DNA of 64,000 nt, taken from the NCBI GenBank assembly GCA_963971285.1, contig OZ020254.1, forward strand, positions 9,052,001 through 9,116,000. Direction: 5' to 3'. The position numbers and the translations under genes are program-made. The notes beneath the pieces are model-generated. The model was not told the DNA's origin, did no database searches, and was given only the letters and a program-made list of their open reading frames with translations. Origin of the DNA: Astropecten irregularis. Its lineage: Eukaryota; Echinodermata; Asteroidea; Paxillosida; Astropectinidae. Position 1 is the first letter of the stretch; each line of letters starts with the position of its first letter. Below are positions 2,907-42,800 of the stretch, piece after piece.

Positions 2907-3098
2907 GGTAATGAATGTGCAAGTATGCAGACGTACCATTTTGACACCGCCACAAAGCGTGCCTCGACCAGGGGAATCACCTATAGTATACGAATTGCAT
3001 GCAAGCAATATACATGTGATACAACTTCATAGTTAGGCATCCGTTGTTATTATTATTATACGAGTTGCTGAAAACGTTGCTAAGGATGAGCAGTGTCG

Positions 3099-3217
3099 CT
3101 TTGGTTTTTTGTCAAAATAAAATATTTTTTATGCAGAATCATGGGCAAAAATATTAAGAACAATACAACTGTAATCTTGTGAAATATCCAGTCCCATACG
3201 GTGCCCACTTCTCAGTT
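3099..3217 (-). mobile_element. Family A fragment
   Basis: Only the right arm remains: TTTGGTTTTTTGTCAAA, ATGGGCAAAAATATT, then TCCCATACGGTGCCCACTT. It is diverged from the other copies, so it is probably older. Confidence 0.6.
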
Positions 3218-3690
3218 GGAAGTCCCACACATGCCGTAACATTAATGCGGTTTTCGAGCAGAACTTAGCAGGGGTTCTCCCCTTTCATTTTCTTCCCCGT
3301 TTTCGTTTGAATTTCTCCCGTTGACTAATAGGAAACAATTCAACAGGTTGCTGGAGAGGAGACGTTTCAATAATAACATAAATAAACGATCTGGCCGCGA
3401 AATAGGTGCGGCAGTGGTATACGCCCCTGGGTCCGGGGAATGTTTCCGTGTTTAAAAGGATAGACCCTTCTTTTCTTTTTTTTTAGGTATACTGCAAATA
3501 AAAGTTCATTAGTCACAAAATCCGCAGCTTTTGCAGTGTAAGCCTACGGATTGTGTAAAGTCACCTTGTGGGTAATTATATTTTTCATTCCTTTGTTTTC
3601 ATTTGTTTCATCAAGACTGATTTCACAATATTCTATGGAAACAGTGACATTTTAAACATTTTGAATCAAGAATATGTTCGATCTGGTGAC

Positions 3691-3700
3691 TATAAAAAGG
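3691..3700 (+). promoter_or_regulatory. TATA box of the five-exon secreted-protein gene
   Basis: TATAAAAAGG lies 136 bases before the ATG at 3836, which would put the start of transcription near 3720 and leave a 5' UTR of about 115 bases that includes a (GA)n run at 3800-3820. A sharp TATA promoter is common in inducible signalling genes, but no transcript supports it here. A match to the kappa-B consensus (GGGGTTCTCC) at 3271-3280 is noted but is expected by chance about once in 4 kb. Confidence 0.45.
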
Positions 3701-3835
3701 CTCACGGTAGACAGGGATTCATCATGTTAACTCGTTGCGGTACCAAAAGACGGCTGGTAGACCATAGCTTAAGACTGATAATTAGTTTCGGAGGGATCCA
3801 CAGAGAGAGAGAGAGAGAGAAAAATCAACTTCAAA

Positions 3836-6800
3836 ATGAATGGTGCTCGCACAAATGATGCATTTTCGCCTGCTCCGATGAGATTCGTTAGGCGCAACCG
3901 CCAATTCGCGGTATTTCTGCGGGTGATGCTTGCTTGCATGGCCGTGGTTGTAGCGCCAAGCCACGGGACTGCCACTGGTGTTGAACCGCCAAGTACCGCT
4001 ACTTCCACGCTGCCTGACAACCAACAAGTCCGCGGAGGTTGCATCATCTCGGAAGATTTGTATCGGAGAGTAATCGACCTCAGAGACACACTTATCTCTT
4101 TATACAAGGTAAGTCGAAAAGAAACTCCTTAAAGGTATAGTATCATACATCTTCTGTCACAGAAATACAGATTCATGGGCAAAAATATCAAGACAGATAC
4201 AGTAATAGTCATCTTTGAAAATTTCAGTCCCATACGGTGCCCACTTTTTGAGAAAACAGTGAAAAACGGCCACAGTATTTCTAAATTTTTTTCTCTTTAA
4301 TTTTGATCTTTTAAAAGATCAAAAACATTTTCGGTCGTTGTTTTACTAATTTCTGGATAAATACAGCATTTCAGGCGGAAACATTTGAACGGTATGTTTC
4401 TCGGCCACCACCATCTTCATACCCTGTAAGTTATACGTAAATCTGTGAACATTTCTGTTTTGGTGTCTTACCAAAGTATGATACTACCTTTTAACGATTT
4501 TTTTGCCGCCATTTTTTTCCGTTGCCTTTTTTCTAACGTGTGGGTACAGGCTTACATCTTTTCTAAATCACGATCATCAAGTAATCACTACATTAGTTTT
4601 TTCCTATCGTAAAAATTCATTTTAAACAAATTCGACTATTTACTATACTAAAATTGATAAATCGTCAGGAAAATGATGCAATTCGACAGTGTGATAAAAG
4701 TTTTGTCCATAAAGGCTTTTTCTTAAGTTTGGCTTCTAAAAACGGCAAACTTTCCCTCAAACTTTCCCGCGGAACTCTTTTGTGCTATGGTCAATTTCTT
4801 GACACAATGTCGACGTTCTCTAGACGACTCCTAAATATTTACAAAATACTTTCGAACTCAATGGATAGAAATCTCTCTAAAACAATCATGGCATCGTTTT
4901 GGAGAAGTAAGTTGGTTTAGAGAAAAGAAACGTTTAAGAAAACCCTAAAGTGTGCTTTGCCTTTACTGAACTATTTATTGTTTCCACTAAGTAACCGACT
5001 CTATCGAAATGAGTCACAACGGTAATATTTACGGCTTAATGGATAATCATAAGCTAATATTATGTGACCAATTTTATGTTTTAATTTCAAGCACTTTTTG
5101 AGGAACGAGGATGCTGGGAGTCTATCGTCCGTCCAAAGACAAGGACGTCAGATCGATACATCTTGCTTCCAGGTGAGTTGAGTCACGCGCCCTGATCGGT
5201 CTGTTCGTCCGTCGGGGGCTGTTGTTGTTGCTGCTGTTGTTGCTGTTGCTGTCGATGTTGCTGCTGCTATTGCTGCTGCTACTGCTGCTGCTGCCTATTG
5301 CCGCTGCTGATACTTCGCTGCTGCCTGTAATTGGTGCTAATGCCTATTGATGCCGCTGACACTGCTGCCTATTGCTGCTGCTGCCTGTTGTTGCTGCTGA
5401 TACTACTGCTGCCTTTTGCTGCTGCTGCCTATTGCTGCTCCCAGCATCTAGCTAATCTGACCTCCTCTGACCTCCACCATTATACAGCTTTTGGACACTC
5501 TGTGGGAATCGCTTTGTAAAATTGAAGGCTACAGTGACTGGTTGGACAGAACGATGACACAGTGGTCATCAGGTGCAACTGAACTGGCTGTTGTGCTCAG
5601 GGACAGAGCAAATGCAATGGTGGAACTGGTTCGTCATCAGGTGAGATCCATGAGGATAAATATTATCCACAACTCAGAGAACACTGCCGTGCAATTTTTT
5701 GTCAATCTCCGTTGAATTGAATATCAGTTTTCCAGTGTCCACAGAACAGTGATGATGGAGTACTCGTACTCGAACTCGAGCACAACTCGAGTACCAATAA
5801 GTAAGAGGGGGGGGGGGGGGGTGTTGCAACACCCCCCCCCCCCAGGTTTTCACTTTTAATATATATTAAAAAAATGATTTTGTGCAGAAACGTATGTAGA
5901 AGTACGACCCAGCTACAAGATCAACCCCCTCGCCCCAAGGTCTGAGAACGTGTCTACACTGGCCCGTACTCGGTCATAAGTAATCGAGAAAAAACCAAGT
6001 ATCATACTGCCCATCACTACTCGTAATTTCGTACTCGGTCTCGTCACCCAGACTCGACAACTTGTAGGGCCTACAGTTCCCTTTTTACGAATAGGCTATT
6101 ATATACATGTGTATTATTTTTAAATGTTCAGATAAAGCAGTTGGAAACGTGCGAATACTTTCAAAGTTCAACCGCAACCGCCAACACCCAAGACCCTGCA
6201 GAACGCGCGGGCCAATCAGACTGGACGACGACACAAACCCCGTCACGTGGTGAAGACATCAGCCAATCGTGTCCAACACAACCAACTGTAAGTGTTATAA
6301 TGTCGAAGGGAATATTGAAAAACAGTAGCGACGTTCCGAATTATTTTGAATGTATAGGGGGGGGGGGAGGAGGACCGACAATCTTCGGAAACTGTTTTGA
6401 ATAATTGCTGTTCTTGGGGTGATTTGTTTTATTTCTGAAAACGAGGCGGAAAGGTCAAGGAAAAGGTCTAAAGTGTCACCTGCTTGATCATAAAGTATGC
6501 CGTGTCAAAATTCTCTGGCTGCGGCTACAAATTACGCATATCCTATGGCAGCCACTAGCCAGTGACTGCCATGGTTATTGCAGCCATTTCCATAGACTTG
6601 TGTGTTATTTGCAGAGTCAGAGCCAGGACATGGCCCTACTCACCTTCTAAAAAACAAAACGTTCACTTAAAGGTAACATCATACTTTGGCTTTAGTCAAA
6701 GAAATACAGATTCATGGGCACAAATATCAAGAAAGATACAGTAACAGTCATCTGTGAAAATGTAAGTCCCATACGGAGCCCACAGTTTTTGAGAAAACAG

Positions 6801-8422
6801 AGAAAAGATTTACTCTTTTCTTGATAAATACAGCATTTCCATGCAGAAATATTTTAACTGTATGTTTCTATACCATCACCATGTTTATACCCTGTAAGTT
6901 ATGTGTAAAATCTGTGAACATTTCTGCTTTGGTATGCTACCAAAGTATGATACCACCTTTAATCTTGATTACAAAGGGGCAGTTCCGTAGTTGCGGACGT
7001 GCATTTCAGAGAATTTGAGAACCCAGAACTTCAAATTTATTGAGGCTTTTGTATTTTGAGCAGTTGCATTTTAAGTATCTCAGATAGAAGTATAAAACCT
7101 GTGATTGCGCAGCACATCACAAAAACACCCCCGTTGCGGACGTATTCACAGAAAGTGTACTTTTCATGTGCTTGCGTTTTCATCACAATTGCTCTGAAGT
7201 GTCAAGACTTTTGAACGAAACTGATACAGTTTTGTTTGATAGAGGAACCAAAATAAAGAAAACCAGCAGAGAAATTAACCTCAACCTTTACCTTCAGGTT
7301 AGAATTCTCCATGTTCATTGTTGCGGATGTTCGTTGCGGATGTGCACTGTGAAATATTCAATTTGTACGTCCGCAACGATAAAATGACATCATTTCTAAA
7401 TACTGAATAGGGGGTGGAAAGTAAAGACATATCAAACAGAGACACTCAGTTGCCATCCTTTAAAAAAAATGTAAACTTAATTTGTTTGAAAAAAAGAAGA
7501 AGAAGACTCTGAGTAAGGTCATTGAACTTGGATGTTTTGGGAGTGTACATCCGCAACAAAAATCTTATATGTACTTTTTGCAAAAAAAAAAATGGTATTT
7601 TCACTAATTTTGAGTCATTACAGCCTCAAAAATTACAAAACATGAATGTTTGATAAAAACGCAAATAATTATAAAAAAACTAGATGCTTTGACCTTCAAT
7701 ATGATTTAAAATTAAGGAATTTCAACGATTTTTTAATTTTGACCATTTGGTTGACATAATTACGGAACTGCCCAATTAGCTCTCGTAAGGTCCCTGCATG
7801 GACACGACCGTTGATTCAATGAGTATACCGTGCATGCCGTGTTTAAAGGTAGTCATACTTTGGTAAGAAACCAAAACAGAAATGTTCACAGATTTTAATA
7901 CGAGTAACTTTCAGGGTATGAAGATGATGCTGGAAGAAACCTACCGTTAAAATGTGTCCGCCTGAAATGTTGCACTTATCCAGAAATTAATAAACCAACG
8001 ACCGAAAATCTTTTCGATCTTTTAAAAGATCAAAAATAAAAGAGAAAAGACTTAAGATATACTGTCGCCGTTTTTCATGATTTTCTCAAAAAGTGGGCAT
8101 CGTATGAGACTAATTTTCACAGATGACTGTTACTGTATCTTCCTTGATATTTTTGACCATGAATATGTACTTCTTTGACAAAAACCAAAGTATGATACTA
8201 CCTTTATCACTCATTATATATACTTAAGGACCGTGCATTCTATAATGTAGAAGAGATCAAGTCCGGTGATACTTAATGATTACAATGATGTGTACTTTTA
8301 TCTTTCAGGTGGCAGGACTGCTCACTCCAAGGCCTTCCTCTGGGACACCAGAGACCATTCTCGAAGGAATGATGACTTGCATTCGTCAAGTAGACCACGT
8401 CCTTCAATTCTGTTTCATGTAA
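3836..8422 (+). CDS. Secreted four-helix protein, candidate class I helical cytokine (unrecognised gene)
   Basis: Five coding exons join without a stop: 3836-4108, 5092-5172, 5488-5640, 6132-6287 and 8309-8422, giving 258 residues. Each donor is GTAAG or GTGAG-like, each acceptor follows a pyrimidine-rich stretch, and all four introns are phase 0. Residues 16-48 form a signal peptide (basic RRNR, then hydrophobic FAVFLRVMLACMAVVVA); Met15 is an alternative start. Predicted helices are about 72-97 (A), 116-146 (B), 147-181 (C) and 233-257 (D). A short loop follows A and a polar, Thr/Ser/Gln-rich loop of some 50 residues precedes D. Cysteines are at 69, 116, 128, 176, 216, 245 and 256; tryptophans are at 124, 136, 144 and 200. 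One signal peptide, four helices and only phase 0 introns match IL-6/G-CSF type genes. No direct sequence relative was recognised, so the cytokine call is inference; an unrelated secreted helical protein is possible. The exon 4 acceptor could instead be at 6141 (three residues fewer). The 3' UTR runs into a family B element. Confidence 0.6.
4130..4493 (-). mobile_element. Family A MITE (copy 4) in intron 1 of the five-exon gene
   Basis: This is a nearly full reverse copy with both terminal repeats (TTAAAGGTATAGTATCATAC at left, TATGATACTACCTTTTAA at right). It begins 21 bases after the intron 1 donor at 4109. Confidence 0.8.
5215..5447 (+). repeat. Imperfect CTG/TGCTGC trinucleotide repeat in intron 2
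   Basis: The stretch is a (TGT/TGC)n run that turns into variants of a longer unit of the type TGCTGCTGCTGCCTATTGC. It lies between exon 2 and exon 3 of the secreted-protein gene. The leucine/alanine-rich reading frame through it is a by-product of the repeat. Confidence 0.75.
5807..5844. repeat. G-run/C-run perfect palindrome
   Basis: About 14 G, then TGTTGCAACA, then about 13 C: one strand can fold into a nearly all-GC hairpin with no unpaired loop to speak of. It sits in intron 3 of the five-exon gene, next to a short inverted ACTCGAG-rich stretch (5759-5792). Confidence 0.8.
6667..6960 (-). mobile_element. Family A MITE (copy 5), internally deleted
   Basis: The reverse copy has both terminal repeats but lacks about 70 bp around the central GATCTTTTAAAAGATC. 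It lies in intron 4 of the five-exon gene. Confidence 0.75.
6977..7773. mobile_element. Non-autonomous element with TIRs and repeated TTGCGGAYGT motifs
   Basis: The termini are perfect 13-bp inverted repeats, GGGCAGTTCCGTA at 6977-6989 and TACGGAACTGCCC at 7761-7773. Inside, the decamer TTGCGGA(C/T)GT occurs at 6991, 7134, 7321 and 7334, and inverted at 7367 and 7547. Such sub-terminal repeats are typical transposase-binding sites in hAT- and P-like elements. No transposase frame is present. The element fills most of intron 4 between two family A copies. Confidence 0.65.
7844..8205 (+). mobile_element. Family A MITE (copy 6), full length
   Basis: The copy is forward and intact at both ends (TTTAAAGGTAG at left, GATACTACCTTT at right), with the central palindrome present. 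It ends about 100 bases before the acceptor of exon 5 of the five-exon gene. Confidence 0.85.
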
Positions 8423-8449: not shown

Positions 8450-8812
8450 AAAGGTATAATACAGAATTGGTGACATGCCCAATGATGTTCACAGATTTAC
8501 GTATAACTTTCAGGATATGAAGTCGTTGCTGCATGGAAGAAACATACTGTTAGAATATTTCCGGCCTGAAATGGTGTATTTTAATTATCCAGAAATTAGT
8601 CAAATAAAGACCGGCAGCAGTTTTGATATTGAGGTTAGATCAAATTCATTCGTTATGTTTTATAAGAAAAACTGAGTCGGAATTTTGCTATTTTCTCGAG
8701 ACTCAGATGTCCGTTTGATCTTGAGCTCACATTTTCATGCACATGTTGGATCAGACAAAGTGTGAATGTTGTTCTGTGACCTTTATACCAATCATGTATT
8801 ATACCTTTAATG
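8450..8812 (+). mobile_element. Family B MITE (copy 1) in the 3' UTR of the five-exon gene
   Basis: Family B starts like family A (AAAGGTA..., GTTCACAGATTTACGTATAA, GATGGT.., TATCCAGAAATTAGT) but its right half is different (GATCAAA.CATTC, TTTTATAAGAAAAACTGAGTC, TGACCTTTACCAATCATGTA, TACCTTTAA). This copy begins 28 bases after the stop codon at 8420-8422. It contains AATAAA at 8603-8608, which could serve as a poly(A) signal. Confidence 0.8.
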
Positions 8813-9235
8813 ATATAGCTCTTTTTATAAATAATTATTAAGTTCGACTACGCGAAACCAGCTTTAATCGGTATTTTCCCATGCGCATGCATTATCATTA
8901 TTTGGACTATTATGCACATCATCCTGAGTGCCATGAAGAAACCGAGACACAACGAAAGTTTTTGGCGGGAAAAAACTTATTCCTTATTGAAAGACTATAA
9001 ATGAGTTATGATCTCATGTTCATTTCCTTGATCTTGCAATCTTTGTTATCAGAAGTATTTAGGATATCAGGTATAATAATGAACACAAAAAGAATAATAC
9101 CGGTTTTTTCTCTCTTTTATATTTTTATATCGAATTTGCTTTATTTCCCAGTTTATTTATAGAAAGAAAAAAAAGTAAATTATATACCATTTGCCCAACA
9201 GCTTTGCTAAGGCTAAAACTCTAAGCGAGACTAAA

Positions 9236-11422: not shown

Positions 11423-12032
11423 AGGTAGTATAATCATACTTTGGTAAGAAACCAAAACAAAAATGTTCACAGATTTACCTATAACTTTCAGAATAATGAA
11501 GATGGTGCTGGTATTGGTAGAAACATACCGTTAACATTTTCCGCCTGAAACGGTGTATTTATCCAGAAATTAGTAAAACAGTGACCGAAAATCTTTTTGG
11601 TCTTTTAAAAGATCAAAAATAAATGTACCGTTCCCAGGTTGCAGCATTGTTGCGTGTATCATTGAAACGATCCCTGGGGTGTGACGGTGTGTGCGTGGTT
11701 TCATGGCTTCTGACTGCTAAACGAACAAAGATAGTTGACTATTGGGGTCACCACCAACATAGGGCTGGATGGCTCAGTTGGTAGAGCGCCTGTACGGTAT
11801 TCAGGAGGTCGCCGGTTCGAATCCCGCTCCAGTCAATTTTTCTTTGTTCACTTTTCAAAAAATAAAAGAGAATAGACTTAAGAAATAATGTGGCTGTTCA
11901 AGTTCACTGTTTTCTCAAAACGTGGGAACCGTATGGGACATTCTCACAGATGACTATTGCTGTGCCTGTCTTGGTATTTTTGCCCATGAATCTGTATTTC
12001 TTAAAAACCAAAGTATGATACTTTTGATACCT
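11423..12032 (+). mobile_element. Family A MITE (copy 9), split by a SINE
   Basis: The left part (11423-11623) and right part (11862-12032) belong to one forward copy. The break lies within AAAAATAAAAGAGAAAAGAC of the family consensus. Confidence 0.75.
11624..11861 (+). mobile_element. SINE-like insertion carrying a decayed tRNA(Thr)-like segment
   Basis: The segment at about 11772-11846 has a box A (TGGCTCAGTTGGTAGAGCG) and a box B (GGTTCGAATCC), a 7-bp acceptor stem GGCTGGA/TCCAGTC and an anticodon loop ACGGTAT. The T stem has a mismatch and loop position 33 is C, so it is not a working tRNA. The upstream body (GGTTGCAGCATTG, GGCTTCTGACTGC, GAACAAAGATAGTTGAC) recurs in reverse at 34350-34490. 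AAAAATAAA flanks the insertion on both sides. Confidence 0.7.
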
Positions 12033-27300: not shown

Positions 27301-29767
27301 TAATAAAAACAGGATTAACAACCAAATTTCCGTGTGTCGTGTATCACTTTCAATTGTCCTTTTGCTGTTGTTCGCTGACAATGAAATGAATATCAAATCG
27401 AATTTCCAATGGTGGTTTGTTTTATTGGGTAAGCCATTTTTGTGCTAAGCAATTTTTTAGTGCTGCAAGCATCTCTTATGAAATTGGCCCCGGGCCTACT
27501 ACAAGAAAGGGCCTACGTGACCATCTATAGAATCCTATACATGTACCTACAGGACCAGAGCATACCACAGTGCCCAGTCCAGGTCACAGCTAGAGGTCAA
27601 TCTCCCTGCCAGATGTGATTTATATTTTATATTGCATATGGATCTAGTATAAGTCCAAGGTATAAAATGACCTCCAAACTTCTGAGTTCTGCACAGGCAG
27701 GCATATTTTATGGCCAGCTTGAGCAATACAAAACTAAAAGCCGGATTTTCTTTATACTGACAAACTGATCCAATATTTCTGGTTGAGTGATTGACAAAGG
27801 ACACGAAGATGTGAGCTATAGTAGGCATACAACAGTTGCCCACAGATCTAATGTCTGAAATGTGTGGGAATTATACAAACTCAAAAAAGTACATTACATT
27901 CTGCTCATCAAAAGAGCTAAATCTCTCTTGAGACCATTGAAGTTAGAGTAGGCAGTGGCACAGTAGTCGGTTTTGAACATTTACATGGTTGCAAATAAAA
28001 TGCAAAATATTCAAAATGATTGGATTTTAAGTCTCAATGGCAAACCACAAACCGGAACTGACATCTGGAAATCTCTCATTTCTAGATTTTTCTTGGGGCG
28101 CAGCGTTCAACTTAACATACTGTACGTACAATAAAAAACACGCACAGTGCACACATACTGTGCATGATCCTCAGTGGAATGCATTTTTAGGATGTGGAAG
28201 AAAACGCTGACACAGCCAAACCTCATTGGCAAGGGTGAAAGGTCGGAGTCAAATTTCAACCTTCAATGCAGTTGGCCTCTCATCGTGAGTATCAATTGGT
28301 AAATTGATGGTAGTTGGGACTCACCCATTGGCTAAATTTGTGTGATCCAGTCAATTGAAAACAAATTGCTTTATAAAACCAGAACTTAGTTCATTTTGAT
28401 AAATGAATGAAACCATGGAATGTATTTTAGTACATGTGAATGGTGAACATGTATACATATCATGTACATACAAAAAAACATGTATACATAGATTTACATA
28501 AACTGTAGGTAGACCCAAATATACATCATCTGTACTGTAGCCTTCATAGCACTTGGCAAAAATAAAAATGATGAAAATACAGCTAGATAGATGCATACAT
28601 GTATGTGTACATGTATATTTACACTAATTGTGCATGTCAAGCTTGATGGGCTAATGGCTAACGATGAGGTCACAGAACACAAAACAAATGATGCCAAATA
28701 CAGTACACACAGGGGGAGGGGAAAAGTGAGTACAGGATTGAGGAAATAAACTTTAATGATAATATGCGTTGACACCACTTGCCAATGCTAGATCTAAGAG
28801 ATTATCAGATAAAATGACAACACCAAAAATAATGCAAAACCTATGTCACACAGTGCACATAACCATGATAACAGGTCAAGGAGGTACGCTCTTTGAGTTT
28901 CAACGAGGGAGCCCTTGATCGTTCACATCACTCAGGATTCTTTTTTTAAAAGTACATGCATGTTGACATAAATATTATTACCAGCCTTGAGGTCTCCCTG
29001 AAACGAACTGTTTTTAAAACTTTCAAGTACATGTATGTCAAAATTACAGCTCAAGTTCAACCGTAGTTTCCTAACGCAAACTGCACTGTCTTACAATCAA
29101 TCCATAATGCAATGCTTACGTCAGGTCTGTCCAACAAGCACTACCCAGTGACGAGTTAACAAAACGTTTGTTTTGCAATTGTAGTAGTACTAGGCCCTAG
29201 GCCTACTTAGGGCCTGTTTGTTTAATGCACTGGATCCGATATTTTAGGATCCACCTCCTATGCAGGGTACGCTAAAATGGGATCCGGATCCGGATCCGCA
29301 GGATTCGTCATAAACAAACAGGCCCTTAGTCTTTAGATTCTTGTGTTTTTTATGGGTCGGAAACTCGGAATGCTATCAAGGATGGCCAGTAACAAACAGT
29401 TAAATTTACCTCCACTGTGCACATCAGGTCCAACATCGATGGGCAACAACAAGGGAAATATCCCCGTCAGTCCGACAAGTCCAGTCGCCAGCAAAGCGCA
29501 CGTCCAAGCCTCCAACGTTCTGGTCCCCGGTTGTTCACCCTCAGAGTCCGAGGAAGGCTCAGCGGGCGCCGAGGCTACAGGCTCGCCGTCCGCATCGCCC
29601 TTCTCCCGGTGGGCTCGCGTCGGGTACGGTGCAACCTTCCCCGTGTGCGTTTTGGCACGGTGGATATCGCACGCAGCTAACTGGGACAGCAGGAGAACGG
29701 CACCCAGAACGGGCAGGAAAAACGACGTTTTTCCCCGGTGCAGCCGACGGGCTACAGGAGGGGCCAT
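15329..29767 (-). CDS. SLC39A13: Zinc transporter ZIP13
   Basis: Nine coding exons on the minus strand, in order: 29767-29410, 23877-23773, 22083-21977, 21292-20984, 17959-17870, 17382-17332, 16618-16486, 15999-15900 and 15404-15329 (stop included). They join in frame as 442 codons. ZIP13 carries zinc out of Golgi or vesicle lumen to the cytosol. Residues 17-32 form a signal sequence. The first membrane segment is about 88-110. Exon 2 gives the LLSFAVGGLLGDVFLHLLPEAW segment (slightly shortened in meaning, residues 126-148). DNFTHG (306-311) and HEVPHE (335-340), followed by IGDFAILL, are the metal-binding motifs of membrane segments 4 and 5 in the LIV-1 group. The protein ends in a last membrane helix closing with FAD. 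The loop between segments 3 and 4, mostly exon 4, is long and basic (KPKSKKRRK), so the protein exceeds the roughly 370-residue human form. An in-frame ATG ten codons upstream (29797) is an alternative start. XPO7 starts head-to-head 1.1 kb away. Confidence 0.93.
15503..15838 (+). mobile_element. Family B MITE (copy 3) in SLC39A13 intron 8
   Basis: A full copy, AAAGATACAGTACAGGATTG to ATTATACCTTTAA, fills most of the last intron of SLC39A13 (15405-15899). Confidence 0.8.
16226..16400 (+). repeat. Family C SINE-body repeat (copy 1)
   Basis: It starts TTAATAACGGAGGCCACAGA and runs through CCCTGGTTCTCGGCTTGG, CAAATGTTTCTATAGACATT and CAGAACCAAATTCAAGGCCTG. The same block is at 46640-46800 and, reversed, at 39550-39715, where it is joined to a tRNA-like segment. 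It lies in SLC39A13 intron 7. Confidence 0.65.
16790..17165. repeat. Minisatellite in SLC39A13 intron 6
   Basis: Irregular tandem units of about 25-30 bp, variants of GGAACCAGCCATAGCCAACC. On the minus strand the frame that contains exon 7 stays open back through most of it, coding a Trp/Gly/Pro-rich string. No splice or start signal supports translation. Confidence 0.75.
17610..17745 (-). mobile_element. Family B fragment
   Basis: A reverse right-half fragment: TTAAAGGTACAATACATGAT, GGTAAAGGTCACA, AATTTGAGCTCAATCGGACA, TTTTTCTTATAAAACATGA. It lies in SLC39A13 intron 5. Confidence 0.7.
18453..18817 (+). mobile_element. Family A MITE (copy 11), full length
   Basis: A forward copy in TTAA context with both terminal repeats and the central GATCTTTTAAAAGATC. 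It lies in SLC39A13 intron 4 (17960-20983), which otherwise shows only unremarkable AT-rich sequence. Confidence 0.85.
19630..19988 (+). mobile_element. Family B MITE (copy 5), full length
   Basis: One of the cleanest family B copies, from AAAAGTACAGTACAGGATTG to TCATGTATTGTACCTTTAAG, including the GATCTCGGGGTAAGATC centre. It lies in SLC39A13 intron 4. Confidence 0.85.
23051..23202. mobile_element. Family G palindromic short element
   Basis: The left end GGGGTCAATTTCACCAAACT mirrors the right end CTTTGTGAAATCGACCCCTG, with CGTAACTTAACTATCAATCG and its rough complement inside. About 150 bp, no coding capacity. It lies in SLC39A13 intron 2. Confidence 0.65.
23361..23657. mobile_element. Family F short TIR element (copy 1)
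   Basis: The ends are CCAATTTCATGGAATCCATT and its complement, with inner repeats of CTAACCG/CGGTTAGC type and GAAATTCTTCGCTAACCG. Another copy is at 40086-40370 and a fragment at 48819-48880. Confidence 0.7.
25621..25791 (+). mobile_element. Family A MITE (copy 12), large internal deletion
   Basis: Both ends remain (TCGTACTTTGGTAAGAAA and ATGATACTACCTTTAAAG), but the middle from the AATG of the left half to the CTTCCTTGATATT of the right half is missing. It lies in SLC39A13 intron 1 (23878-29409), whose remaining sequence shows no recognised exon. Confidence 0.75.
27235..27491. mobile_element. Family E short TIR element (copy 2)
   Basis: A reverse copy of the 51088-51331 element (TAAGCATGATATTTCTGTCT, AACAGGATTAACAACCAAAT, TTCCAATGGTGGTTTGTTTT) ending TTATGAAATTGGCCCC. 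The left terminus is obscured by an A run. Confidence 0.65.
29211..29324. mobile_element. Family H 114-bp TIR element with target duplication
   Basis: Perfect 14-bp ends, GGCCTGTTTGTTTA and TAAACAAACAGGCC, are flanked on both sides by CTTAG (29206-29210 and 29325-29329). The interior is built on GGATCC repeats. It sits 85 bases inside SLC39A13 intron 1, next to exon 1. A diverged relative is at 43745-43882. Confidence 0.75.
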
Positions 29768-30892
29768 GACTGCAACCTCTCCCGTGATTTTTTGCAAAAA
29801 TCGTGGGTCAGAAAGTTAGTAAATTTGGTGAGAAATTTGGGCCGTCATGTTGTCAGCGAACAGTCACTGCGGCAGCATCCTGTAGGTCTAGCAGTCTAGT
29901 CTGGCTTCACGCATGAATCGAATACACGTATACATTGTACACATAGACATTTTACGTACATGTTTACTTCCCGTCTCTTCCGGACCAAAACCAAAACACA
30001 ACGTGGCAAGGCATATGGTGGAAACAGAAAACAAATTCCAGTTCCCACGGTAGCAGCGGGACAATGACAATGTGGTATTGTTACAAAATACAATAGGCAT
30101 CTGGCAAGGGGACTGGAAAGGGGATTTGGGGAAAGTTTTCTTTGGGGGGGGGGGGGGGGGGGGGGGCTATATAATTGATTTCTATTAAATTTACAATTTG
30201 ATGGAGATCAACGAGGTGGGGTGTAAGGGGTACCTTTTTTTAGGGGGGGGGGGGAGGGGTGAAAGTATTTAGGGAGCATGGGGTTGGGAAAAGTTTTGGT
30301 CACCTGCGCTTAGGGCCAAGTGCTAGTGATGGGTGTTTCCTACCTCCATGAGTGGAGTAAGGTTCATGATATAATATAAGTAAGTATTACTCCTGCAGTG
30401 CTCGAGTAACTTAAATTAGAGAAATAATTTCAGCAAGTTGTGCTTTTATCTGAGGTTTTTTTTTAAAGAAAGCTTCTGAAAGCCACTTAGTTTATCATTA
30501 TGTAATCTTTTTCTCCTTACTCTTCTAGTTCTACCACATGGTGACGATTTAAGTACGTCAGCTATGTTAGGAATTCTTCATTAAATCATCGTCCATAAAT
30601 ATTTTTCGTGTTAATAAAAGAAAATTCATAAGTTTGGAAATAAGAACATGCGAATCAAGATGTCAATTCATGAGCGCGCAAAGAGCCACATCATTGCGCT
30701 CCCGTCTGGATTGACCGGTTGTGTCTACGGCTATGACTGCACTACGCGGCATAATAATGGAGAAACCACAGGAAGCCATAGCTCTCCAGAGAACTGTCTT
30801 ATTACGCCGACGTTTCCCATCCCGTGGGGGCGCCCTTCGTACATGCAGCATGAAACGCTGCTGCTGCTCAGCTATCAAAACATCGCAAGAAA
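29768..30892. promoter_or_regulatory. Head-to-head intergenic region of SLC39A13 and XPO7
   Basis: Only 1.1 kb separates the two start codons, which point away from each other, so the promoters probably share this segment. It contains 23 consecutive G (30144-30166) and a second run of 12 G (30243-30254). The flanks, around 29440-29780 and 30660-31080, are CpG-rich compared with the introns. No TATA box is obvious for either gene, as usual for housekeeping genes. Confidence 0.5.
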
Positions 30893-33800
30893 ATGGCGGA
30901 CATCGATCAGGTGAGTTTTTCAGCGGAGTTTGCAACTGATCGACCGAGCCAGGCCCTTAAAAAGCCCCGAATATTCCGATCTGTTCAGGAGCAGGGTTTG
31001 GCGGAGGTGTTCCGCAGTGATCGGTCGGTCGTATGCGCTCGTTTGCCGTGTACGTCTGGCAGTTGCTTGCATGTGGTTTGCAGCTGAAATTTACAAATGG
31101 GGGCCCCATCCCAGTCGCACACCACGCGCCATTTCTTGTGTCATCATAAACAACATGTGGAAAAAAAAATGAGCGAGCATCATCATCACGTATTCCTGGC
31201 AATCAGCTTTTTATTTTGTCTACATCACTTAAGTTAAACTGGGACAGATCTGCCTGCCTTATGTAGTAAACACTCCCCGTTTTCATCCCATTTCATCAGA
31301 ACTTCAACATGGTCATGATGAAGTTGGAACAAACTCCAAACTACCAAAGTATCAATCATCATGGAACCTCATTGTCACTATTTACCAATCCATGTTTACT
31401 TCTTTTACTTTCTTAAAAAAAAGGTTGAGTGGCATGCAGTGTATGTAGTCTTCCTCCACTTGTGTACCTTAATCTACGACTTTCTACGTGTACTACTTTA
31501 TTTCCCCTTTGCTAATTCTGTGACTTGTCTAATCATATCACTGCCATTTGTCTGTGTGAATTGTTAAATTCTTTGCTACTTTTGGCACTTGGTCATGGCA
31601 CTTTCTTGCTAATTCCAAGCCTTTGCCTTGGTGTACAGCAGGTCTGTAGGATAAAGAATTAAAAAAAAATATATATATATGACACAGGATTAATGTACAT
31701 GACATGAACATGAATGCATGCTCTATGCATGTTGCAGTACAATTAACAACTGAAGTTGTACACACACCACAATAATCCCATTTCTGTGTAATTCCTACCA
31801 GAATCTTTCCCGAATCTTCTTGAAACATCAATGCTGCAGTTTCCCATTGGCACTGCAATTTTTATCTAGACTTGTCGACCAAATGGAAGACTTTGGAGCT
31901 GAGTGTTAACTTGATAGCGCATGCACACAATAGGGCGAGCATACTTGGAAGTAGCAAAAAAGAGACTTCAGTCTACTGCCGCCAACGTCTCAAAAGTCTC
32001 CCATTGGAACAGCAGTGAACAGTGTTCTGTCCTTCAGTCCTTCAGTCCGCATTACTTGAAATAAATATTTGGTGGAGTACGGATACTTTATGAAGGTCTG
32101 TTAAAATTTTCACCAGGAAAAAAATACTTACAGACCAAATAGCTCAAACTATTGGCCATTGGACTGCTGTATCTCCTACCTGTATATCCAGGGTAATATT
32201 AGGGCACAGCAAAAGATCTCTGCATGAGAATAACATAGCCAGGCTTGCTGATGATGGCAGAGGTCGAAACTAACTTCAGTCTCCTGTTGGCCTATAGGGC
32301 CAGTGGACAGAGCAGTGCACTGGCATTGTTCCACAAATCAGTGGCCCACTGATTGTTTTTGGTGGCCCCAGGACAGCGGACCACTGATAATTTTGACCCC
32401 TGTGATGGGATTGGATGGAAACACGTTGTGGTCACCTGCCTTGTAGCCCATTGATAATGACTGATCATGATGTTGGTGATGAATGGGCCCATAGGTGGCT
32501 CTGCTGAGTGTATCATACAGTGTAATGCCGCTATAACGAATATCGCTATAATACTGAACATTTGGCTATACCAAACATCATCATCAAATGGCTCCCAATT
32601 TTTATTTACAGTGTACTATGCTGGATATTGTTCACTATAACGAACGACCACTATCAGGGCTCGAAATATCCACTAGACCGTGGACCGAGTCTAGTGATTT
32701 TAGTGTTGGTCTAGTAAAGTGTGTACTGCACTAGTCCGGCTGTCTAGTGATTTTGTTTTCCTAAATTGATGATTTTTGACAGAATATTGCATACAATTAT
32801 GGTTTTCCTATGTACACGAATGCCGCAGGTCTAGTGAAAAAAATTCAGGTCTAGTAAAATGCTTCAGTTACTAGACCTGCTGTCCAGTGCTTTTTTTAAC
32901 GAAATTCGAGCCCTGACTATAGAGGTTATTCATTTGACGTCATCAGCTTGGATTGGCCGTCAAGCACAATGCTCATGTGTAAATAATACACTTTAGTACA
33001 CATGTAATGTGCAGTGTCGTACAAGTAACCATGGAGGAATGTAGACAAGCTTGACGGCCAATCACAAGATTTAATGATGTCAGTGAATAACCTCTATAAC
33101 GAACAATTTCTGTGCATCCCAGCGTGTTTGTTATATTGTACATCCATTTCACATGTAAAGCCATAACTGTAATGGTTTCCCTCTTTTCTGCAGATCGCAC
33201 AGCTGGAGGTGCTGTGCAAGCAGCTCTACGAGACCACAGACACAGAGCAACGGTCCCAGGCGGAGAAGGCTCTTGTCAGCTTCACCAACTCACCGGACTG
33301 CCTGAGCAAGTGCCAACTGTTACTGGAGAGAAGCAGTGTAAGAGTGAACAAGAACTTTATGAAGCATTAGTGAATAGTTAAGAATGATAACAATAATTAT
33401 GTAGATTTATTATATGGTTAACTTATCCGGAATCCCAACCAAGGTGCCTACATTATTATTATCCCTGGTCATTGGGCTACATAAAGATTCCTGAAACCAT
33501 CTCAACTCCTTGAGGAGTATTCAGCCCCGGCTGCTGTAAGCACACAAAGGCTTATCAAGAACAAAGCCATCTCTACCGTCATAGCTACCCATTTACACCT
33601 GGGTGAAGAGGAGCAATATGTGGCAAAGCGTCTTGCCCAGGGATCCAAGCACCACGACCCATGACTCGACTCGATCCCACAGTCTGTAGATTGACCATGA
33701 GACATTGAATACGACATACAACAGATCACTAGGTCACAGCGCCCAACAAGTTAATGCAGTTACTGTTTTATTAGCTAGAGGAATGTACCTAGACTCTCTG

Positions 33801-36800
33801 TTATCTGTGTTGGAAACCACTAAAAGCACTAAAAGCATGTAAGACAAGCCTATCTTTCATAGAGAGGTTTAAGCGCATGGTTTTGTGTTTACAAGATTTA
33901 AAAGGAGGTAAAACTTGAAGAAACAGTAATTAGAGATTTCCTCTTTTCTCCTTCCTTTGTTGCAGTCAGCTTACGCCCAGCTCCTTGCAGCCACCACACT
34001 CACCAAGCTCATTTGCCGACCTTCGACAGTGCTCCCACTCGAGCAGAGAATAGACATCAGTGAGTAAACCTATTGACTTGATTCTAACCTGAGTCATTTA
34101 AAAGTGAACACAGAATAATTTACTTGGATGGGATTTGAACTAATGACCCCGGAATGCCATACCAATTTGGCAGTCTCAACTGTCTCACAGTCTCAGCTGT
34201 CCCCTTATCAAATATGGTCGAAATACTTCATGACATCCTTGCGCACAATAACGGAAAAGTTGTTCATTTTAGTGGTGTGCTATGTAAGTCACATTAGGGG
34301 GGACAGTTGAGACCGGAAGACAGCTGAGATTACAGGACCGGCACTCTATCAACTGTCCCTAATAGTCAATTATCTTTGTTCGTTTGGCAGTCAGAAGCCA
34401 TGAAATCACTCGCATACCACTATATCCCAAGGATCATTTAAGATATGCTCAGCATAATCAATGCTGCAACCTGAGAAATGGCATTCTAACTGGAATACAA
34501 AAATACAAGTAGCACTATATTGACTAACTAGAGTTTAAAAAGAGCATGAGCTTTTGTAGCAACAACTACTTCATCAGATGCAAGCTCGTGCTCTTTTTAA
34601 ACTCTAGTTAGTCAATATAGTGCTACTTGTATTTTTGTATTTTATATGTTATCTGACTGACACGGCTACCCACCAATATATTCTAACGGAGTACATGTAA
34701 AAAGAAGGAAGGAAAAGTTGAAAATGGTATGTACCTGCGTAGGCTGCCTACTGTAACATATAAATGCTGTAAGTGGATGACACATACTAGTATAGCTTCA
34801 GTAGTGTTTGTGGAATCTTGTTGAAATGAAATTTTGAAGGTTGGAGATGACAATACGGAGAGGGTTTGTTATGGAATTAGGCTGTTCTTTGGGCCGAAAT
34901 GACTAGCAAGAACCCTAAGTTTCAGAGCCCCACTAATTGCCTAAAGAAATGATTTATTTCACACGGTGCCACTTCTGGCCATCTCCTAAATGTGCTTCCT
35001 TCTTCAAGCAATTCTGTGACATTTATAAACATTTTTGGGGTTGTAATATTTTCACTTTAATTAGCAACATTTCAGGTGTTACAGAGTGTGGTCTTTTCCT
35101 AATCTTTCCTTACTTCCCATTCTTCTCACTAACGCATAAAACTGCATTCAGTTGTGTGTGACAATAAATTGGATACATCGTCACCGCACCTATGTTTAAT
35201 AATGTGCACATTTAATCAACCGTGACCACAGTGGTGAGCAAAGCATATCCCCATTGTAATTGTGTGTCATAGTTTTTCACGGGTTCGTCACTCAACACTG
35301 TGTCCTTGTGCAGTTTAATTTCCGTTTGGCACATGATTGTGTGTATTTCTCGGTTGAATTGGGTTTTTTTTTTAGGGGGGGAGAGACTTCTGTCCTTGAT
35401 ATTGGACATGAACAATACCGCGGGTAGATTTCACAAAACAATGGGATCAATCTTAATTTTAAAGGTAGTATCATACTTTGGTAGCATACCGAAACAGAAA
35501 TCTTCACAGATTTACGTATAACTTACAGGGTGTGAAGATGGTGGTGGTAGAAACATACAGTTAAAATTCTTGTGCCTGAAATGGTGTATTTATCCAGAAA
35601 TTAGTAAAAACAAAGACCGAAAATCTTTTTGATCTTTTAAAAAAGATCAAAAATAAAAGAGAAAAGACTTAAGAAATACCGGTACTGTGGCTGTTTTTCA
35701 TTGTTTCCTCAAAAAGTTGGCATCGTGTGGGACTGAGATTTTCACAGATGACTGTTACTGTATCTGTCTTGATATTTTTGCCCATGAATCTGTATTTCTT
35801 TGATAAAAACCAAAGTATGATATTAACCTTTAAAACAAATATCAGTATCACCATAAAATTACATAGTTTGAACATTGAAAAAAAATCTTCATTAGCCTGG
35901 TCAAACTGTTGTGATAGGTTTGTATCGTTGATAAGACCATTGCCCAGTTCCATGATTAAGGCTGCATAGCATTACAGAAAATCATAAAACTTAATAGCAA
36001 ATGATAATGACCAAAAACATAAATCAAGCAATATGCTAATAAAATGGGTTGTATTGTGTTTTGGTCGGTAACCTGTAACTGCTAATTAAGCAGAAGGTAA
36101 TAATAGAAACTGGTTCCCATGGCTTACTCACTCCTCCGACCAGCATATGTTTATGTTTAGTTATTCATTTGCAATTTGTTGTGTTACGGTATTCATTTGT
36201 GATGTACGACCAACTGCCCTGTTGACCTGCATTGTGGGATATGTCATTGAGATACCACACTAGGCATAAAGGCATATTATATAGATTGATTGGCTTAACT
36301 ATGATACCATTCTATCTAAATACCTGCAACTTTTTCTTTCTCCTCAGTCATGTCAGTTCATGCATATGGGTAAACATACATAAAATGCTTTTACATACAT
36401 ATACACAACTTAGATCAAGTCAATCATTTTGTGAAAACATATTACACTTTATAGCAAGGCCATATCACTTAACATTTAATTTCTTTGTATAAAGATTACA
36501 TACATGTATTTATGTGGACATAAAAAATGTCTGCTTCGTGTTAAAAGATTAACAGGTTGTCATTATATGCTAGTTAAAGGCAGACAGTTTGTGAAAATAT
36601 AGCTCTGTGTAGTGTGGGCAGTATTGGGCACTTTTCCTGAAAAGAACACAAATTAAAAAAAAAAATGAGTTTAATTGAAAAGCGCAAGAAACTCAAGATA
36701 CTATATCAAAAAATTGCAAATAATGCTGTTATTCATCATGATATCTTCATGTATCCACGTCCTCCTTATGTTGTATTTGAAAGGAAATATGAAAGTTTTA

Positions 36801-39800
36801 ATCATTTTTTCTGCATTTAATTTTTGAAAATATTCTCAATTATGAATTACTGGGCATCTAATTTGTACCGGACTAAGATTTCCAAACATATAAAAGTTCT
36901 ATACTTAATTCTCCAGAGTTTTAATTAAGATAGACAAGTTAGCCTTTTCATTAAAGGGTTCCTGCTTTTTTCAGTCAGGTTATTTTTGTTTGCTATCATG
37001 TTTGTAACTGCACGTAACGCTGCAGCGAGCCATGACAGCTTCGCTGTTCTAGTTAACCCTGAATCAGTGTGAGGAAGTGGGTAAAATCACAGTCCCCATG
37101 TACAGTTTCTTTTATTGGCACATGTTCAAGCCATAATATTCTCATTGCAGAGACCCTTTAATTTAACCCTAACCCCCTGAATCCTCCAAAGTGCTTGGGC
37201 TCTTGGCCCAATTTGGGAATGAAGTTGGGTTGAAATTGGGAAATGGAAATTGGGGTTTGGTCTCGGAGATAGGGATTGTAATTTTTTGTAGCCATCTGTT
37301 GATTGTAAGGCTGAGTCATCTCGGGATCTTTACTCCTCATTTGCTCTCCTCATTATTTCTGCATTGTATCATTTACCACCAATATATATGTATATGAGAT
37401 TTGTTTTTGTTTTGTTTGTTTGTTTGTTTTTTTTGTTTTTTTTTGGGGGGGGCTTGACTACATCCTGATAGTAAACTCCTTTACCCACCTTAAAGGTACA
37501 ATACATGATTGGTAAAGGTCACAGAACTGCACTCGTACTTTGTCTGATCAAACATGTACATGAAATAATAAACCTGTGAAAATGTGAGCTCAATCGGACA
37601 TCTGAGTCACAAGAAACTAGCGAAAACCCGACTCGATTTTTCTTGTAAAACATGAAGAATTGTTTACTATATGTTTGTTCCAAAAATCGTTCGGACGAAC
37701 GATCTTTGGAAAATACACTAAATCTTGATTTGCTTGAAAAACCCGGCATCTGATGAACTAAGATTTTCCATGGTGACTGTTTGCACTGTTTACGAACTGT
37801 CTCAAACTCAAAAATTTTTTTTTGGAGGCCTTGCAAATCCTATATGCTCCCTTTAATTTCAACTCTGGTATATTTTTGTTTTCAGAAAACTATGTGCTGA
37901 ATTACCTTGCAAGCCGACCTAAGCTTCCGAGCTTTGTCACACAAGCGCTCATCCATGTAAGTATCAGTTACTGTGTTAATATTAAAGCTGTATGACTCGA
38001 TACCCTAAAAGTCTTCAACAACATGACTTCCGCCAAAGGAATGCAGTTTTCATTCATCCCTGTTTGTAGTCCAGCAGAAAAGTGAACTTGTGTTAACTAG
38101 TTTCTGTTTGTCACTTTTGGAAGTAGCATATGCAGTGTTTATGCACAAAGAAAAGCAAAAAAGACATGGTAATACTTGGGTAAAATTGACATATTTTGGG
38201 TACGTCTCCAGATATGGTAGAGATTTTCTGAGGGAAATAATTCATATGGATCCCAAGAAATTCTCACGCTCGTAGTCCTTGCGTCATTGAAGATGCTCTT
38301 GGAAGTATCTTTTCCTCAACAAAATTTTCTGATCCGTTGACGTTGGTTGTAAAGATATTGGCACCAGTCTATTTTCAGCGTGAGCCTCGCTTTGAACATT
38401 ATTGACTTCTGTTGACAACATCAAAATGGCCATTGAATAACACCTGGTCTGGTACCCTTGTTCTCTGCAGTTGCAGGCCCGTATCACAAAGCTGGGATGG
38501 TTTGACAGCGAGAAGGACAACTGGGTGTTCCGTGATGTCATCGATGATGTCACTAAATTCTTACAGGTATTTGCAACTCATTGTAATGACAACTTTTTTC
38601 CATTTTTCGCTTGACTTAAAGCTATGAAGAGCACAGAAATGGATTTTACACACAAAAATTAATGAATTTCAGGTCAATTTGCGTGACTTACTGTTTTTAA
38701 AAGATGATATTACTATCAATCTTCTTGTAACATCTTTTTCTCTAATATTTCGGCAACTTTGAGTAAATTAAAATGTGTGTGAATACCTCAAACACAATCA
38801 GCTGATTTCCATAGCAGCAGTTAAAACGAAACATGCGCAAATTCTCTTTAAAACAAACAAATAAATGAACAGAAACTTTACTCCTTGTTTAAAAATTGTC
38901 CCAGGTTATGTGTATTTTATAACCTACATGGTTGGAAACGACTCTCGCTTCCAAAAAACATGCCACTCAATTTCATAAACCGTGCCTTAGAAAATAGCAA
39001 ATGGTTTTTTGTAGGTTTATGGAATTCCCTACCCTCATCCTGTTTTTCCTGCATGATATAATCTCTCTCAATTCAAACGTAATGTTAATAGTTTTCTTGC
39101 AAACAGATCTTCCTAATTGCTCTGTTTTTCTCTCTCCTTTCCTTTAACCCTCACCTTTGAGTGGCCCTCTAGGGCCTTGTGTTGGGCAATATTTGTAAAA
39201 AAAGAAAAGATTATTACAACTGAAATCCATGCAAGATAATAGCTTCAATCTTTTGTCACTAATTTGACTCATTTTTGTAGGGTTCCGTGGACCATTTTGT
39301 GATTGGTGTACAGCTGATGTCACAGCTAGTCAGTGAAATGAACCAGGTGAGTAATTTGAATTCAATTTGGATACAAAAAAAAAAGAAAACAAAAACGATT
39401 TTAATATGATTTAATTACAGTTTCAATTTGAGACCAGTATTTTTAGATTTTCTAGTTTTACGTCACTGAAATGTGAACAAAGACAAATTAACTGGAGCAG
39501 GATTTGAACTACGACCCTCAGAATACCGTATTGGCGCTCTACCAAATGAGCTATCCAGCAGGTCTTGAATTTGGTTTCGAAACAGACAAGGCAACTTTTC
39601 CATTGCAAGGGGCACTTCCATTGGAAATCATAATGTCTATGGAAACATTTGAAGGGGGCACCAAGGCCAAGAACCAGGTCAATGAAGGACATGGCCTCCG
39701 TGGCCTCTGTTAAATTCAAAGCTTGATCCGGGCACATGTTGGCAGTATCTTAAGCTGTCAATCATCTTTGTTTGCTTGTATTTTGTAGATGTAAATATTT

Positions 39801-42800
39801 CTAGTTTTGGGCTTGTAGCATTTGTAATGGTATTTTGTGATTTTGATGTTTGGATGTTTTTTGTTATTGTAGCCGGATACTGTGAGACCTCTCACCAAAC
39901 ACAGAAAGATCGCATCCTCATTCCGGGACTCGGTTCTCTTTGAGATATTCAACTTGGCCTGCAATCTCCTGAAACAGGTGAGAACGAGGAAATTGAGGTT
40001 GGATTTGGGTTCGGTTTGGTTGGTATGTTGATGCAAGACCACAAGTGGCTAGATTTAGGAAAATTTGTCAAGAGCAGGACCAGGTCCCAATTTCATGGAA
40101 TCCGTTACGACCTATTTTTGGCCGGCACTGCTACGCATAAAATCTATTTCATGGAATCCGTATTCAAGACTCTCGGTTAGCGAAGAATTTCTAGGGTAAC
40201 CGTGATCATTTTCTGCTAACGGGCTGTCGTATGCATTCTGCACAAATTCCTTGCTTACGGTTACCAACAAGGAAACTCTTCCGTGAAATACGCTAACCGT
40301 AAGCAAACAAAATCTGCTACAGTAAGCGAAGAATTTTTGCTAACGGTAACGGATTCCATGAAATTGAGCCCAGGCTAAACAATTTGAAATAAATAGAAAA
40401 ATACTGCACCATAAATATCTGTAGATCATCATAAAGACAGAGTTACTTATATTAAAACAAGATTTGAATTATGTAATAAGTGTCTTCTGTTATGTGTCAC
40501 AATCCAGGCTTCCAAAGAAGGGGTTGACTTCAACGATGAAAATAAACATTCACTCATGACGCAGCTGCTAAGATTAACCCACAACTGCCTGACCTTTGAC
40601 TTCATTGGTACCTCCACCGATGAGTCAACAGATGACAATTGTACTGTACAAATACCCACAGGCTGGAGATCAGGTAAGTAACCAGGGGCCAATTTCATAA
40701 AGCTGCTTAAGCACCAAAATTTGCTTAAGCACCAAAAACCTTTTAAACCTTAATATTGACAGAAGTGGTTGTATATGATTTCATCATTCCATTCGTTCCT
40801 ACCACAGCGTTCCTGGACTTCAGCACGGTGGACCTGTTCTTTGAGTTGTACAAGACCCTTCCACCTGTCTTAGCCCCACTGGTAAGTGATTATACATAGG
40901 TAGTCTCACACTGAGAAATCCCAGGTTCCTCTGTCGTGCATTCTGAGCCTTGTAACTTTCTGAGCTAGGCTCAGGAGAGTCCCGAGGACGAACAGAGCAC
41001 ACTGTTCGGAACGTCGATAATACCAATGGTTCTTCTCAGAACCACACACTCTCACAGAAGAGATAACATGGTGTCACCGCAAACCTACCTTATTTCTTTT
41101 GTTTGTTGTTTGTTTGTTTGTCCAGGCGCTAACATGTTTAGTTCAGATAGCATCAGTCCGGCGATCGTTATTCAACAATGCAGAGAGAGCCAAGTTTTTA
41201 TCTCATCTCGTCAACGGTGTTAGAGGTATCCTGGAAAGCCCACAGGTACGTTTCTTAAGCAGTTGTGTTTTCTTTCCCTTCAATTTCCAATTCTGTATTC
41301 ATTGGTTTTTAGTCATAACTTGTCTCAGGTACCCCAACCGTCTGCACTTACCACACAAGACAAGAGCCGTTGACCACACATTCCCATAGTCTCTACAGGG
41401 AAACTGGATCATAAACCAAGAATTACCATACAAACCACACTGGTGTATTGTGGTATTCAGGATAACACACTTAACACTAGAAAATGTGTGATAAATTGTG
41501 GTATGCAAGTGGGTTAGGGCTGACGGTACAGTTTCCTTACTTGGGCCCATTCCCCCAATAAGAAACGTGGACCATGGATGACAGGTCTCCAACTTCATTT
41601 TGCTTTCGGCTGTCACTTTAGCTCAGACTTTTCCCTTGGGAAAGGTCTTTTGCTGTCAGGTCAGTGTCCTTCAACGTAGAGTCTTGACCATTTTTCTTCC
41701 CCGTTTTCTCTCACTTTTTTTGCTAACAGAGCCTGTCTGATGCGGGCAACTACCACGAGTTCTGTCGGCTGCTGGCAAGACTCAAGTCCAACTACCAACT
41801 CGGTGAGCTTGTCAAAGTGGAGAATTACGCGGAGGTCATCGCCCTTATTGCAAAGTTTACGGTCACAAGTCTTCAGGTCGGTAGCACTCATTGACAGAAA
41901 TATGTATTCTCTGAGCTCTTGACTCCTTCTTTTGCCTAATCATTGGCCTTTTCCAAACCCCAACTCAGACTCTGGCTCCGGCTCCGGCTCCGGCTCTATT
42001 CCGTGATTCCATTCTGAAATAACAGGTCCTAAAATAGAGCTTTTGTCTGCGGTTCTGAAGTAGATTCTCTGGTTTGAAAAAAAAAACAGAGCTTCAGCTT
42101 CAATGAAAAACCCCAACCTACATTTTCAGCATATGGATGACAGAGACGAAGCCAGTGAGCCGGAGTTGGGGTTTGGAAAAGGCCCCATGTCTGTTGGTTA
42201 GAAATGATGTACCTGTAATAGGCTGTTAGTTTTGCAGTTTGGATACTTGACTGTCCAGGATTTTCGCCTGGCTGGACCAGCAAGCTTGTTTTTTAACAAG
42301 TCCAACACCATTTTCATATCCAGTATTTGTGCTTTTCTCCATTAGTGCCTGAATTGAATGTCTCTTTTTAAAGGTCCCCAGGCTTGTTTTCCACTAGATT
42401 CTGCCCACAGTTCAACCAGAGTGATTTGAGCAGACCAGCTTGGACCTTTTGGAGAGTGTTTTGAGTAGTCCCCTGGCCAGCCGTCTTGATTTGTAACTGG
42501 CTGGCAGGTTGAGCGTTAATAGCTTATCACTCACAAATGTGGATCTTGTGTGTTGGGTCTACAGGTCTGGCAGTTTGCACCCAACAGTATTCACTACCTT
42601 CTGACCCTTTGGCAACGCATGGTGGCCTCGGTGCCCTATGTCAAGGCCACAGAACCCCACCTACTGGAAGTCTACACTCCCGAGGTGACCAAGGCCTACA
42701 TAACGTCCCGGCTGGAGGCGGTCAGTGCCATCCTGAGGGACGGGATGGAAGATCCCTTGGACGATTCAGGGATGGTGCAGCAGCAGCTGGATCAGGTGAG

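Follow-up and report, generated by a model that had tools for sequence, protein, structure and literature searches.

Within a 64,000-nucleotide (nt) stretch of the genome of the starfish Astropecten irregularis (contig OZ020254.1, positions 9,052,001 to 9,116,000; hereafter the window), five spliced exons on the + strand, between positions 3836 and 8422, encode a protein of 258 residues followed by a stop codon. The locus probably represents a genuine protein-coding gene; its sequence anatomy and the rarity of that anatomy by chance were observed directly, and we infer that it is expressed. The product is probably secreted and has about 214 residues once the predicted signal peptide is removed; it would contain four main helices, the last of them preceded by a Ser/Thr-rich linker. 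The leading reading of this protein is a helical cytokine, a plausible guess that falls short of being probable. The exon structure and how rarely it arises by chance, the published gene plan of helical cytokines, the helices in both predicted models, the cytokine rows among the fold matches of the second model, and the amphipathic character of helices A, B, and D make this reading plausible. Such a molecule would be released from cells as a compact helical bundle, which would bridge receptor chains and thereby activate JAK kinases and STAT signalling. No earlier report of the gene was found in the open-access literature. An initial annotation of the locus had proposed a class I cytokine; its observations were partly confirmed and its interpretation was partly supported.

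Gene model and chance tests

The features of the gene model are as follows.

3691-3698, + strand: TATA box TATAAAAA, 145 nt 5' of the first ATG, the sole + strand TATAWAW in 3000-3836
3836-4108, + strand: exon 1, 91 residues; signal-peptide-like start, polar stretch, Cys69, and most of helix A (71-96)
5092-5172, + strand: exon 2, 27 residues; end of helix A, A-B connection, and Cys116; acceptor AAG, donor 9/9
5488-5640, + strand: exon 3, 51 residues; bulk of helical stretches B and C, and Cys128; helices in low-confidence models
6132-6287, + strand: exon 4, 52 residues; Cys176 in the end of helix C, followed by a Ser/Thr-rich linker that carries Cys216; alternative stop at 6404
8309-8422, + strand: exon 5, 37 residues and stop; final amphipathic helix D (234-257), Cys245, and Cys256; good acceptor
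8603-8608, + strand: possible polyadenylation signal within a repeat-covered stretch (8485-8816)

The product rebuilt from these coordinates has no internal stop, and all four introns are phase 0, lying between codons, which confirmed the gene structure given in the initial annotation. The exon lengths (273, 81, 153, 156, and 114 nt) are each divisible by 3. Donors 1 to 4 match the consensus MAG/GTRAGT at 9, 9, 8, and 7 of 9 positions, and the acceptors carry 13, 11, 11, and 13 pyrimidines per 17. Weak points of the model are the exon 2 acceptor, which ends in AAG, and donor 4 (ACT/GTAAGT), the weakest of the four. The introns measure 983, 315, 491, and 2021 nt, with G+C contents of 0.335, 0.54, 0.438, and 0.36; the G+C content of the exons (0.48-0.53) is above that of introns 1, 3, and 4 but not above that of intron 2, and between 4 and 13 per cent of equal-length stretches in the region 9-33 kilobases (kb) reach values as high as the exons'. 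The upstream TATA box previously reported is present, yet it is weak evidence alone because the + strand of the window holds 22 TATAWAWR sites. Polyadenylation-type signals (AATAAA/ATTAAA) occur at 8603 and 9669. A bacterial promoter scan was uninformative for an animal gene.

Stretches repeated in the window cover none of the exon bases, and at least one such stretch lies inside each of the four introns; the possibility that the exons were built from window-repeated elements was therefore not supported. A paralogue search found no second copy of the gene in the window (next-best match, E 1.8), and a search of viral contigs gave four pattern matches, none of them confirmed. An element resembling a miniature inverted-repeat transposable element (MITE), with the end motif AAAGGTAGTATCATACTTTGGT, was matched 23 times in the 64 kb, allowing 3 mismatches at most, compared with 0 times in 100 shuffles, and copies are found, for example, at 4125-4498 and 7830-8211.

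The rarity of the exon chain was assessed by a scan that admitted phase 0 introns only and set three minimum values: 150 nt for the ATG exon, 7/9 for each donor, and 9 pyrimidines in 17 for each acceptor. The observed region holds a four-intron phase 0 chain, whereas among 1000 second-order Markov sequences of 5050 nt, one-intron chains occurred in 187, two-intron chains in 67, three-intron chains in 12, and four-intron chains in none. When a hydropathy filter for a signal peptide was added, a four-intron chain was present in 0 of 200 simulated sequences and in 0 of 40 other real 5050-nt segments of the window. The thresholds were chosen after the gene model had been seen, so this rarity is strong yet not blind.

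Several observations stand against the gene model as drawn. The exon 1 stretch is also open on the - strand for 112 codons, the frame of exon 4 stays open to a stop at 6404 (90 residues), and other phase 0 chains can be built in the region, the longest of 996 nt compared with 777 nt for the model. Because of these other chains and the read-through to 6404, exon 5, which carries the fourth helix, is the least secure exon. We regard it as improbable that the gene is real with a wrong 3' part, such that exon 4 runs on to the stop at 6404 or is followed by other exons and helix D is not in the protein. The read-through, the longer chain, the 7/9 score of donor 4, and the length of intron 4 (2021 nt, repeat-bearing) would suit this alternative, whereas the acceptor of exon 5 is good, its amphipathic helix is the most significant of the four, and the read-through crosses a poly-glycine stretch.

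Predicted product

The protein begins at Met1 or Met15 with a signal-like start that continues as FAVFLRVMLACMAVVVA. The N terminus passed a simple hydropathy filter for a signal peptide and was otherwise judged by eye. A polar stretch follows, and then helix A (71-96), helix B (113-141), helix C (147-179), and helix D (234-257), so that the helical stretches are 24-33 residues long. A polar linker of about 54 residues, with a Ser/Thr fraction of 0.32 over 50 residues, separates helices C and D. No N-glycosylation sequon was found in the protein. The view of the initial annotation, a secreted helical protein whose exon plan is like that of a cytokine, is reasonable; its two more specific arguments, from the IL-6/G-CSF gene plan and from CNTF/CLCF1, did not survive the comparisons below.

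Comparison with cytokine gene plans

Five coding exons with unsplit codons are reported as an identical structure in six IL-10 family genes, IL-3, IL-21, and IFNL1 (PMC2654155). Fish type I interferon genes are described as having five exons (PMC5127012), and their reading frames as being cut by four phase 0 introns (PMC4929537). The present gene model has the arrangement published for IL-10 family (class II) genes, five coding exons and no split codon. The arrangement is not diagnostic of class II because IL-3 and IL-21 have the same plan, and its presence in the IL-10 family, IL-3, IL-21, IFNL1, and the fish interferons means that IL-6 and G-CSF are not singled out. Thus, where the initial annotation took the five-exon plan as a mark of IL-6 and G-CSF, the cytokine-like plan held and the specificity was lost. 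The plan points to class II or to short-chain class I cytokines no less than to IL-6/G-CSF. We judge it the strongest argument in favour of a helical cytokine, although it is neutral between class I and class II.

The likeness may extend to what the exons encode. In IL-10-type genes, helix A lies in exon 1, exon 2 is short, exon 3 holds two helices, and the last helix is in exon 5; the human IL-10 exons encode 55, 20, 51, 22, and 30 residues. The exons here encode 91, 27, 51, 52, and 37 residues, and exon 3 has the length of human IL-10 exon 3 (51). This agreement of intron positions with helices is tentative, since the helices here are of low confidence. The order of a predicted signal peptide with helix A, a short A-B exon, a 51-residue exon with two helices, a linker exon, and a last helix resembles the plan of IL-10/interferon and IL-3/IL-21 genes, suggesting a helical cytokine. 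The protein differs from the IL-10 family and the IFN-lambda and fish type I interferons, whose genes share its five coding exons and four introns between codons, in the lack of significant sequence similarity, in the Ser/Thr-rich linker of exon 4 in place of helix E, and in a longer N terminus.

With IL-21 and IL-3, of the short-chain class I type, the gene shares the published five-exon, no-split-codon plan; the differences are that the IL-21 alignment score is at chance and that the helical stretches here are longer. Helices of short-chain cytokines are usually shorter than the stretches of the present protein. With the long-chain class I cytokines IL-6, G-CSF, LIF, CNTF, and CLCF1, it has in common that there are four long helical stretches, the last of which comes after a long connection; it differs in that similarity is near chance, the A-B connection is short, and the phase of the first intron is not the same, the first intron of IL-6 and G-CSF being phase 1. 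It is conceivable, and on balance rather unlikely, that the gene encodes a helical cytokine of an invertebrate deuterostome, near the root of classes I and II, that has kept an ancestral five-exon phase 0 plan like that of IL-10, IL-21/IL-3, and interferon.

Evidence weighed for and against a cytokine

Against the helical cytokine reading stand the sequence comparisons, the predicted structures, several features of the chain, and the codon usage. In Pfam at E ≤ 10, no cytokine family was matched, and the only match was an unrelated DUF (E 0.045) that lies under its cut-off; phmmer gave no match at E ≤ 10 among 177635 PDB sequences. Both negative results are to be read with the fact that the HMMER filters discard most weak matches. 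In pairwise comparisons with 17 human cytokines, none was clear of shuffles that preserve the hydrophobic pattern, the z-scores ranging from -1.11 (IL-15) to 1.05 (IL-24). The IL-21 alignment was at chance (z 0.10) and spans helix A to SCFQ. Scores on the five family profiles were near chance (-1.9 to 1.7 bits). The four-member gamma-c profile (IL-2, IL-15, IL-21, and IL-4) scored 0.5 bits, which 90 of 300 pattern-preserving shuffles equalled. Cytokines of other families were mostly unrecognised by these profiles too, with exceptions that include IL-3 (8.2 bits on the long-chain profile), and the near-chance scores therefore rule out close membership only.

A distant class II member of the IL-10/IL-20/interferon type, as one form of the cytokine reading, is a slim prospect. 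Besides the shared published plan, it could draw on IL-24 and IL-19 having the two highest z-scores of the 17 and, by eye, on GGCIISEDL, which is like the N termini of IL-19 and IL-20, and RQVDHVLQF, which is like their C-terminal helix. However, neither z-score (0.51 for IL-19) is significant, IL-20 scored below average, a linker stands where helix E is expected, and the five-member class II profile gave 0.9 bits, equalled by 19 of 300 shuffles that preserve the pattern and by 20 of 300 plain ones. Motif likeness to IL-19/IL-20 was rejected as proof because nothing stood out on scoring, and likeness to IL-2/IL-15/IL-21 was rejected on the same ground. That such by-eye matches could be found for two unrelated families is a warning.

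The other form, an IL-6/CNTF-type class I cytokine, has only a small chance of being right. The lengths of the helical stretches (24-33 residues), the IL-11, LIF, CNTF, and prolactin rows among the second-model fold matches, and the long-chain profile (1.7 bits, equalled by 28 of 300 shuffles that preserve the pattern and by 6 of 300 plain ones) are consistent with it. On the other side, the reversed query scored higher than the true query on this profile (1.9 bits), the A-B connection is short, and the published no-split-codon plan names IL-10-type genes, IL-3, and IL-21 (PMC2654155). The initial annotation had also likened helix A and the start of helix B to CNTF and CLCF1, which was contradicted by scoring: CNTF fell below the shuffle mean (z -0.73 and -0.91; second lowest of the 17), and the score of the query on the CNTF/CLCF1 profile (-1.9 bits) was equalled by 205 of 300 pattern-preserving shuffles.

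AlphaFold, run without an alignment, gave two models with a predicted local distance difference test (pLDDT) of 46.1 (214 residues) and 47.5 (192 residues), which is very low. Both low-confidence models place helices at the expected positions and none in the linker, and they differ in the A-B connection (4 or 15 residues); because the pLDDT is too low, the helix topology cannot be read from them. Foldseek against the PDB returned 110 matches at E ≤ 10 for the first model, none of them at E ≤ 0.001. Among the best 50 of these 110, there was no natural cytokine; the rows include generic bundles, among them the FAT domain and designed proteins, two of the latter made as cytokine mimics. The second model gave 45 matches at E ≤ 10, again with none at E ≤ 0.001. 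Judged by title and chain length, 14 of these 45 rows are helical cytokines, representing seven different proteins (five IL-11, two IL-27, two prolactin, one LIF, two CNTF, one IL-6, and one IFN-lambda3); one more IL-27 complex was left out because its chain length did not fit. These rows are not significant (E 4.1-9.5, template modelling score ≤ 0.31), and we read them as a hint rather than a result. In the viral fold library, no cytokine was present by name among the best 50 of 90 matches, many of which are unnamed. The fold check proposed in the initial annotation yielded helices in the expected places and no significant fold match.

The initial annotation had further claimed four amphipathic helices. 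This held for helices A, B, and D, whose hydrophobic moments were reached by 56, 66, and 5 of 2000 shuffles, respectively, and failed for helix C, which is not amphipathic (233 of 2000 shuffles as high, best angle 166 degrees). The A-B connection is about 16 residues. Beyond the predicted signal peptide there are seven cysteines (69, 116, 128, 176, 216, 245, and 256), an odd number that would leave one unpaired. In an earlier, poorly smoothed codon test, 165 and 457 of 1000 random sets were equally high. The test was repeated with a leave-one-out control and the exportin-7 gene (XPO7) as reference, and codon usage was -0.10 bits per codon, compared with +0.34 for left-out XPO7 pieces and -0.225 (95th percentile 0.312) for random open stretches. 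Coding status is not supported by either test.

A serious possibility that stops somewhat short of likely is that the protein is secreted, helical, and specific to its lineage, with no relation to cytokines; it could then be, for example, a protein of body fluid, mucus, or the gamete surface, and its phase 0 introns and helices would be coincidental. The lack of similarity to any cytokine tested, the Ser/Thr fraction of the linker, the generic bundles among the first-model matches listed, and helix C would all suit such a protein, whereas its exon number and phases fit the published helical-cytokine plan, and cytokine rows, none significant, occur among the second-model fold matches.

Relation to earlier work

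A helical cytokine in a starfish would meet a partly known signalling background. JAK and STAT have been traced back to sponges, and an echinoderm and a hemichordate are reported to have IL-6R/gp130-like receptors (PMC13203501). In diseased sea stars, IL-6R-annotated contigs were found to rise (PMC4503460), which we counted in favour of a cytokine. On the ligand side, a 2026 survey places IL-6 family ligands in vertebrates only (PMC13203501), and PMC8226699 states that no invertebrate member of the IL-6 superfamily was found. A type I helical cytokine, a growth hormone-like protein, has been claimed at low sequence identity in the invertebrate chordate amphioxus, and the same paper remarks that acorn worms and sea squirts yielded none (PMC9010856). 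That protein was cloned and tested, whereas the present one is predicted from sequence. An IL-6-like molecule of the starfish Asterias forbesi, from 1996 and known through citing papers (PMC8226699, PMC4503460), also had cytokine-like activity in an echinoderm; the mentions consulted name no gene for it, and nothing ties it to this locus.

Fast-evolving ligands are poorly caught by sequence searches, and an exon plan combined with a predicted fold might do better. If the cytokine reading is true, the gene would be a candidate ligand and a search template for others, and it could help in dating the origin of interleukin-type signalling. If it is not, the locus would illustrate how readily a protein with amphipathic helices is taken for a cytokine.

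Other features of the window

XPO7 was the only clear conserved gene found in the window. Its exon pieces (33173-51675, + strand) were picked by eye; eight of them, joined, matched Pfam TPR_XPO7 at E 2e-61, and the pieces had no match in the PDB at E ≤ 0.001. A match to the histone 3' untranslated region stem-loop (Rfam RF00032, 35.2 bits, gathering threshold 34) lies within this gene at 41023-41067 (+ strand). An open frame at 29333-29797 (- strand) resembled a zinc transporter (ZIP) by eye; Pfam did not confirm this and gave only a sub-threshold match to DUF6264.

A tRNA-Thr(GGT)-like sequence at 11763-11835 (+ strand, 52.8 bits) seems, by eye, to lie inside a copy of the MITE-like element. 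A 101-bp tandem array of 4.3 copies at 51659-52098 has a unit containing GGTTCGAATCC, which is like a tRNA T-arm. A second tandem array, of 105 bp and 24.6 copies, spans 61200-63790, and its - strand has open frames of 272 and 118 codons that read as a repeated peptide.

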